Translations under genes and position numbers: made by a program
Assembly (NCBI GenBank): GCA_021825445.1
Contig: JAKAHA010000002.1
Location: forward strand, 50,461 to 114,460
Direction of reading: 5' to 3'
Source of the DNA: a bacterium
Lineage (GTDB): Bacteria; Patescibacteriota; Microgenomatia; UBA1406; GWC2-37-13
DNA length: 64,000 nucleotides
In this document: one piece after another, positions 5,176 to 8,099 of the stretch
Layout: each line of letters starts with the position of its first letter
How positions within the stretch are numbered: position 1 is the stretch's first letter
The notes under the pieces: model-generated
Seen by the model: the letters and a program-made list of their open reading frames with translations, nothing else
Database searches by the model: none
Told to the model about the DNA's origin: nothing

Positions 5176-5217
5176 ATCCTAATTTCCTTCATTTATAGTA
5201 TAATTTACCAATTAATT

Positions 5218-5298
5218 GCTATCGTAGCTCAGCGGTACCTGCCCGCAACGCCTTCGCAAGCTCGACTTGCGTGGCAGGCGGGGAGCACCCGTTTTATA
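5218..5298 (+). pseudogene. 5'-half relic of tRNA-Met(CAT), interrupted in the D-loop by a 45-nt palindrome
   Basis: gctatcgtagctcagcggta + gagcacccgttttataa matches nt 1-36 of the intact tRNA at 5541 with one mismatch (CAT to TAT); no 3' half follows. Confidence 0.8.
5238..5282. repeat. 45-nt GC-rich palindromic element
   Basis: Outer stem CCTGCC/GGCAGG with inner hairpin CGCAAG-ctcga-CTTGCG; absent from the intact tRNA copy. Confidence 0.8.
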
Positions 5299-5303
5299 AC
5301 ATT

Positions 5304-5540
5304 ATGTTTTATACATATGTTTTGGAAAGTACTGTAGATAAAAAATTATATATTGGTTTTACTGGAAATTTAAAAAAAAGAGTTAGTGAACATAATCAAG
5401 GACAAGTAATGGCAACGAAATCAAGAAGACCGTTAATATTAATATATTATGAAGCTTGTTTGAATGAAGGCAAAGCTATAAAAAGAGAAAAGTATTTTAA
5501 AACAGGATTTGGTAGAAGGTATTTAAAAGAAAGAATTTAA
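5304..5540 (+). CDS. Small GIY-YIG domain endonuclease (UPF0213-like)
   Basis: MFYTYVLESTVDKKLYIGFTGNLKKRVSEHN...YYEACLNEGKAIKREKYFKTGFGRRYLKERI; stop codon abuts the tRNA at 5541. Confidence 0.9.
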   Translation: MFYTYVLESTVDKKLYIGFTGNLKKRVSEHNQGQVMATKSRRPLILIYYEACLNEGKAIKREKYFKTGFGRRYLKERI

Positions 5541-5615
5541 GCTATCGTAGCTCAGCGGTAGAGCACCCGTTTCATAAGCGGGACGTCACAGGTTCGAATC
5601 CTGTCGATAGCACCA
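5541..5615 (+). tRNA. tRNA-Met (CAT), CCA encoded
   Basis: gctatcg/cgatagc acceptor, loop ttCATaa, T-arm acaggttcgaatcctgt, discriminator A plus CCA. Confidence 0.95.
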
Positions 5616-7045: not shown

Positions 7046-7208
7046 AATAATAATAACCAACAATTTTTTACATGTCAGTAGGTTATAGCCTACAAAATAA
7101 CACAATTAGGATATGGAGACGGGATAATTTCGTCAATATACCACTTATATTTAACGTTGCACGAGCTCTTACTGAAATTTTTATTAATTTTTGCTAAAAT
7201 TGAAGCTC

Positions 7209-8099
7209 ATGAAAACACCTAATCTCTCAATAGTGATTGTTTCTTACAACACAAGAAAAATTACTGAAGATTGTGTAGAATCTATTAATAGATCACTTAC
7301 AAACACAAAAATAAAATATGAAATTATTGTTGTTGATAATAATTCTTTGGACGGCTCTCAAGAAACGCTTCAAAAAATCGCAAAAGACAGAGCAAACCAC
7401 CTAACTTATTTCCAAACCGGAAGCAATCTGGGCTTTGGTCGTGGAAATAATTTTGGCGTCAAGCGTGCAAACGGAAAATATATACTGCTTTTAAATACTG
7501 ATATGATTGTCCTCAATCGTGCCATTGAAAAACTTTATAATTTCTATGTTGTTCGGGAGAAACAGGTTCATTTTCTTGGAGCAAAACTTCTCAACAGTGA
7601 TTTGACTCCTCAACCATCCGCCTGCAGATTTTTTACTTTACCAGTTGTCTTTGCCACTTTACTTTTAAAAGGCGACTACTGGGGCTTAACTCGATCTTCA
7701 CCCGATAAATTTTGTCGAGTCGATTGGATAAGTGGAGCCTGTATTATGACCACAAAAAAGTATTACCAACGTTTAGGTGGCTTTGACAAAGATATTTTTA
7801 TGTACATGGAAGAAGTTGATCTACTATATCGTGCCAAAAAATTAGGATTAAACACTTTTTTTTACCCTGAATCACAAATTATTCATTTGGGTTCAGCCTC
7901 ATCCAACGGAAAGACTTTCCCAATTCTTCAAGTTTATAGGGGTTTTATATTTTTCTATAAAAAACACTTTTCCTTCTTCCATTTATTAATTCTTTATGCT
8001 ATCTTAAAATTTAAAGCCATTATTGCGTTATTAATTGGTAAAATTAAAGGCAACCGGTATTTGATTAGTACCTATGAACAAGCTTTTAAAATTTCTTAA
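7209..8099 (+). CDS. Glycosyltransferase family 2 (rhamnosyltransferase-like)
   Basis: LSIVIVSYNTRKITEDCVESI, IIVVDNNSLDGS, GFGRGNNFGVKRANGKYILLLNTD, GGFDKDIFMYMEEVDLLYR. Confidence 0.9.
   Translation: MKTPNLSIVIVSYNTRKITEDCVESINRSLTNTKIKYEIIVVDNNSLDGSQETLQKIAKDRANHLTYFQTGSNLGFGRGNNFGVKRANGKYILLLNTDMIVLNRAIEKLYNFYVVREKQVHFLGAKLLNSDLTPQPSACRFFTLPVVFATLLLKGDYWGLTRSSPDKFCRVDWISGACIMTTKKYYQRLGGFDKDIFMYMEEVDLLYRAKKLGLNTFFYPESQIIHLGSASSNGKTFPILQVYRGFIFFYKKHFSFFHLLILYAILKFKAIIALLIGKIKGNRYLISTYEQAFKIS

Follow-up and report, generated by a model that had tools for sequence, protein, structure and literature searches.

The tRNA-Met locus described here probably carries a mobile unit of CPR bacteria, composed of a G+C-rich hairpin and a gene for a 78-aa GIY-YIG nuclease, that would invade tRNA genes while one intact tRNA is kept and read through from the old promoter; we assign this reading, which we draw from sequence, a probability of about 0.6. 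This insert family, which recurs at many tRNA kinds in CPR bacteria, appears not to have been described before: the open-access literature searched, a scope outside which most subscription papers and preprints lie, holds no description of GIY-YIG/tRNA insertions in these bacteria.

A split tRNA-Met locus

The locus occupies positions 5194-5615 on the forward strand of the window, the 64,000-nucleotide stretch of bacterial DNA that was analysed. A -10-like native tRNA promoter motif, TATAGTATAATTTA (5194-5207, with TATAAT at 5199-5204), stands 5' of a tRNA-Met remnant at about the native spacing; the same motif precedes the uninterrupted tRNA-Met of two relatives (L040 and L043) at a similar distance and likewise the split tRNA of L210. 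The remnant consists of tRNA positions 1-20 (5218-5237, GCTATCGTAGCTCAGCGGTA, 20/20 identical to 5541-5560) and 21-37 (5283-5299, GAGCACCCGTTTTATAA, 16/17 identical to 5561-5577), which flank a 45-nt G+C-rich palindrome in the D-loop (5238-5282) that occurs once in the 64-kb window and is predicted to fold into a hairpin of -25.6 kcal/mol (5236-5285 in the labelling of the script). The original prediction correctly placed the end of this copied 5' half in the anticodon loop but gave its length as 36 nt; it measures 37 nt, 20 plus 17 around the hairpin. The single base by which the two 5' halves were said to differ, apart from the palindrome, is confirmed as C34->T. Scored against shuffled sequences, the upstream remnant reached a Smith-Waterman score of 40 (shuffle maximum, 22) and a split-remnant score of 31 (shuffle maximum, 9).

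CATT fills the gap between 5299 and the ATG at 5304 that opens a putative GIY-YIG nuclease ORF (5304-5540; 78 aa, stop codon TAA at 5538-5540 included; Pfam PF01541, E = 4e-16), and a complete tRNA-Met(CAT) (5541-5615; ARAGORN; Rfam tRNA, 72.4 bits) follows the TAA with zero gap, an arrangement that sequence, ARAGORN and Pfam bear out as first described. The ORF is the sole coding content of the insert in the window, from which a site-specific integrase is absent. The complete tRNA beside it is unchanged and equals the uninterrupted tRNA of L040 (74 nt identical) and of L041 (73 nt).

Empty sites in relatives

A glycosyltransferase (GT2) gene outside the element (7191-8099, forward strand) adjoins tRNA-Met in more than 15 genomes and serves as a synteny marker for the locus. 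L040 and L043, in which the GT2 gene is 83% and 80% identical, respectively, hold an uninterrupted syntenic tRNA-Met in the orientation of the window, and relatives without the insert number ten for the Gly locus and two for the Lys locus; the insert is thus polymorphic for presence and absence at conserved sites for Met, Gly and Lys. These empty orthologous loci argue for insertion into the tRNA gene, as was first proposed, over the decay of an old tandem. The opposite picture, in which no relative keeps an uninterrupted tRNA at the locus or a tandem pair has plainly decayed, is contradicted by L040, L043 and the recurrence of the layout elsewhere. At the Gly locus, the remnant may represent another allele than the complete tRNA, but decay would fit as well.

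Recurrence across tRNA genes and genomes

The window's own assembly (1.02 Mb, 33 contigs) contains ten GIY-YIG genes, one of them long and, judged by its length, of the UvrC kind. Five adjoin or overlap a same-strand tRNA (Met, Lys, Gly, Ser and Glu), and a sixth lies farther behind that tRNA-Ser. When 400-nt stretches at all 46 tRNAs were surveyed, partial tRNA copies were found at 4/5 GIY-YIG-linked tRNAs versus 2/41 others (Fisher p = 4.4e-4); the fifth linked copy, the 3' remnant of Glu, lies at the edge of its stretch and was detected separately, and all five linked tRNAs therefore have a partial copy across the ORF, versus 2/41 of the rest. The two exceptions are tRNA-Leu(TAG) and tRNA-Leu(TAA), where a 5' remnant without an ORF has one and the same two-hairpin unit in its D-loop. 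This unit, which begins CTCAACTCGTAGTTTCC, spans L010:12955-13039 and L070:996-1079, and a related two-hairpin copy is located between tRNA-Arg and tRNA-Ala in L220 (G004). This genome has one copy each of the Lys, Gly, Ser and Glu anticodons; CAT occurs twice, the second CAT tRNA being presumed to be the initiator. Among the ARAGORN predictions is also a tRNA-Ser whose anticodon, ACT, is unusual.

The linkage extends through the genus, where a tRNA lies within 260 nt on the same strand for 33 of 74 small GIY-YIG ORFs in 20 genomes (expected, 1.9%) and on the opposite strand for 0/74. A search of GTDB species genomes with a close subfamily alignment (A2; alignment A1 was too diverse) returned at least 80 loci. 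In 49 of 80 listed CPR-wide relatives, a complete tRNA starts between -38 and +122 nt from the stop codon, a fraction that is not a census because the query was built from tRNA-linked ORFs. At least 12 isotypes are represented among the tRNAs behind the listed relatives, and almost all of these tRNA-linked loci are in CPR bacteria; homologues labelled as other phyla are, among the matches listed, mostly longer and mostly devoid of an adjoining tRNA. The search for other layouts of tRNA half, GIY-YIG ORF and tRNA was thus rewarded at many isotypes, five of them in the own genome, and while the tRNA-Met layout exists as described, it is not a one-time event: the genus and CPR loci show a family that hits many isotypes.

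Anatomy of remnants and hairpins

The palindrome, first treated as a side feature of the first tRNA half, is more than that: a significant upstream remnant is present at 49 of 68 loci in which the ORF precedes a tRNA, and 45 of these 49 are best fitted when split by an insert of hairpin length. Of 48 inserts, whose positions could shift wherever the alignment was ambiguous, 39 lie in the D-loop or at positions 7-9, which are unpaired parts of the 5' cloverleaf. The remnant begins at tRNA nt 1, preceded by 0-15 nt of upstream sequence that is also duplicated; its end lies mostly between tRNA positions 15 and 37 and reaches the T-loop in some loci, a spread that does not accord with the anticodon loop as the shared target. 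Two loci are mirror images, with a complete tRNA, the ORF and a 3' remnant in that order (L006, Glu; L105, Phe).

The seven acceptor bases of the remnant match those of the complete tRNA in 38/50 loci, whatever the isotype, and ORF similarity does not track tRNA isotype; therefore the duplicated half is usually derived from the target and not supplied by a fixed element, although a minority of loci hold a foreign whole tRNA. The source of the tRNA piece, the target itself or a donor, probably differs from locus to locus.

Hairpin variants preserve pairing through two-sided changes, as seen by eye in Leu and Asp/Val examples. Exact-pattern copies of the hairpin number 10 in 20 genomes, 4 of them at tRNAs and 6/10 elsewhere. 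Units of remnant and hairpin are stacked at one tRNA in L200, L132, L145 and L157, and the L200 stack is located behind the end of a second GIY-YIG ORF. In L068 (G036), a complete tRNA-Ile(TAT) is followed by GGCGGGCAGG and then by an exact copy of its own 3' half from position 35. A T-box-like RNA match at L023:2373-2536 (E = 1.2e-6) is below the Rfam gathering score.

The GIY-YIG protein and its relatives

The ORF encodes a GIY-YIG domain with conserved catalytic residues, as free-standing homing endonuclease genes do (Pfam E = 4e-16), and residues Y5, Y16, G18, R26, H30, E62 and K66 are invariant in 28 tRNA-linked relatives. ORF similarity tracks hairpin similarity (r = 0.50, p = 0.0002, uncorrected for host lineage); in the CPR subset, the correlation is modest (r = 0.21, p = 0.010, likewise uncorrected). 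In a tree of 71 genus ORFs, in which many forks are unresolved because there are so few columns, tRNA-linked labels are strongly clustered (0/200 shuffles as low, three labels jointly) and their clusters are separate from a large tRNA-less group. A phage origin of the GIY-YIG element was considered and rejected, just one IMG/VR contig having matched.

A possible route of insertion

We posit that the nuclease would nick or cut tRNA genes at conserved features, the D-arm, sometimes the anticodon or T arm, and near nt 1, and that repair would then put the unit in and duplicate the 5' part of the target tRNA. Since repair would copy this 5' part, one intact tRNA would survive. In the sequence, a dead copy does lie upstream, composed of tRNA positions 1-37 behind the native promoter and bearing the hairpin in its D-loop. 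The unit would be tolerated only where one intact tRNA stays, and would owe its own survival to that tRNA. The tRNA could then be produced by read-through from the old promoter followed by RNase P cleavage after the stop codon, and this processing would tie an elongator-type tRNA-Met gene to the element. With the old promoter still in front of the remnant, at close to native spacing, a cotranscript of half-tRNA, mRNA and tRNA is a natural prediction, and the layout upholds the mRNA-tRNA cotranscript anticipated earlier as a prediction; we infer the transcript itself, like cleavage by the GIY-YIG protein, the repair route and the RNase P cut after the stop codon, from the arrangement of the sequence. 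The stacked copies suggest that, unlike in textbook homing, occupied tRNAs are not immune. Hairpins lacking the ORF, and those with a whole foreign tRNA inside, appear to be non-autonomous relatives.

Some observations stand against this reading, the stacked copies and the modest correlation in the CPR subset among them. Target-specific tRNA sequence parts the hairpin from the ORF, for which a single insertion offers no simple explanation; six of the ten exact-pattern hairpins lie away from tRNAs; and the complete tRNA is foreign at some loci. A more daring version, which we consider possible but would not favor, is that the hairpin and the GIY-YIG protein constitute a new kind of mobile element that recognizes the tRNA cloverleaf, in extruded or single-stranded DNA, instead of one sequence and inserts into any tRNA gene where the cloverleaf is unpaired, while the forms that lack the ORF or carry a tRNA swap essential tRNAs between CPR lineages.

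Alternative explanations

The strongest competing explanation, to which we would give perhaps one chance in five, holds that the replacement tRNA, or its 5' half, arrives with the element: the resident tRNA would be broken and then repaired from donor DNA containing ORF and tRNA, so that all or part of the intact tRNA comes from the donor while the resident persists as remnants, as in the mobile ORFs (mORFs) of fungal mitochondria, which set a precedent (PMC3630166). A clearly foreign complete tRNA is indeed found at a minority of loci (L134, L151, L103 and L111); in L134 and L151 it is accompanied by resident 5' and 3' remnants, and in L103, L111 and L033 the remnants are of another allele. 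The nested units of L064 (G035), L065 (G025), L067 (G021) and L210 (G002), in which a complete foreign-type tRNA-Met lies between hairpin arms with the ORF absent, also favor a donor. All four are sited in the anticodon loop of the resident tRNA-Met (CA^T); in L210, the resident tRNA is cut exactly at CA^T by a hairpin carrying a different complete tRNA-Met, and the units of L064 and L210 are nearly identical though they reside in different genera. Against a donor as the general source, the acceptor strands of remnant and complete tRNA are equal in 38/50 loci and their sequences are locus-specific, and isotype does not predict how closely ORFs are related. At the locus in the window, the remnant agrees with the complete tRNA, and the two routes, copying from the target and import from a donor, are therefore indistinguishable there.

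A less probable alternative, with odds on the order of one in ten, is that the hairpin is the true mobile element, a palindrome of the REP or Rickettsia type, with the GIY-YIG gene either carried along by it or parasitizing those tRNA loci on its own. This would accommodate the two-hairpin units that lack the ORF, found at two tRNA-Leu genes and, in G004, between tRNAs, as well as the hairpins away from tRNAs, two of them within apparently homologous reading frames; it is opposed by the GIY-YIG/tRNA linkage, which is far above expectation, and by the parallel between hairpin and ORF similarity.

That the GIY-YIG gene is a settled host gene, such as a regulator or maturation factor of the cotranscribed tRNA, is improbable: in its favor, the active site is conserved and the position upstream of the tRNA constant, but presence at the same locus is patchy among close relatives, copies stack at one tRNA and isotypes vary freely. 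Least probable is a plain tandem tRNA duplication that decayed around an unrelated ORF, which would account for the sequence likeness of remnant and complete copy but not for the single uninterrupted tRNA of relatives at the Met, Gly and Lys loci or for the same ORF family between tRNA pieces at many isotypes.

Relation to known systems

Islands and prophages that integrate in tRNA genes use a site-specific integrase and usually restore the 3' end. The unit that we favor shares with them the tRNA target and a duplicated tRNA piece and differs in that the insert holds just a 78-aa GIY-YIG ORF. Group I introns in bacterial tRNA genes likewise combine a tRNA target with a homing-endonuclease partnership (PMC3984707); they differ in their ribozyme, which was not found in the 20 loci searched here, and in their need for splicing, which the complete tRNA beside the insert makes unnecessary. 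A group I or other catalytic intron was considered when a TATAGTCC-like stretch 5' of some ORFs resembled an intron core, and was rejected, as an Rfam match was absent; in 20 loci, Rfam returned no intron or other ribozyme family at E <= 1.

The nearest system in logic is the fungal mORF and the nearest in target is SegB. In mORFs, for example those of Allomyces atp6 and Glomus atp9, an endonuclease ORF is inserted together with a duplicated gene piece in an essential gene, which keeps a working copy while its native piece is displaced, and the atp9 case is also GIY-YIG (PMC3630166). The same layout is found here, with the endonuclease ORF between the displaced remnant and the working tRNA. 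Whereas mORFs affect the 3' ends of mitochondrial protein genes and supply a foreign piece (PMC3630166), the present element affects tRNA genes, mostly at their 5' ends, with a piece that is usually identical to the target and with a hairpin added. T-even phages encode SegB, a free-standing homing endonuclease of the GIY-YIG type that cleaves inside tRNA genes (PMC13096335), which makes tRNA targeting by a GIY-YIG domain plausible; the SegB cleavage motif, RAWTSGAAC (PMC13096335), corresponds in our reading to the T-loop consensus in reverse complement. SegB resembles the present element in that a GIY-YIG gene lies beside tRNA genes of many isotypes and in the microhomology between the segB 3' end and the tRNA 5' end, and differs in being phage-borne, not chromosomal, and in that a hairpin-bearing tRNA remnant before the ORF is not reported for it (PMC13096335).

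If our reading is correct, CPR bacteria harbor a widespread selfish element that is mobile across isotypes and, as the leader of a needed tRNA gene, hard to lose, a bacterial counterpart of phage SegB and the fungal mobile ORFs. Such an element would offer a way for tRNA genes to be replaced and horizontally transferred in streamlined genomes, help to explain the many tiny GIY-YIG genes of CPR bacteria, and provide natural fused mRNA-tRNA transcripts for tests of RNase P processing.

REP and Rickettsia palindromic elements are short dispersed palindromes, some of them within genes. The hairpins described here differ in that most of them occupy unpaired positions in the cloverleaf of dead tRNA copies, and in their link to GIY-YIG genes. 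Two hairpins, of 42 and 39 nt and thus multiples of three, occupy the same place in apparently homologous reading frames of L214 (G002) and L215 (the window's own genome); they are reminiscent of the Rickettsia palindromic elements.
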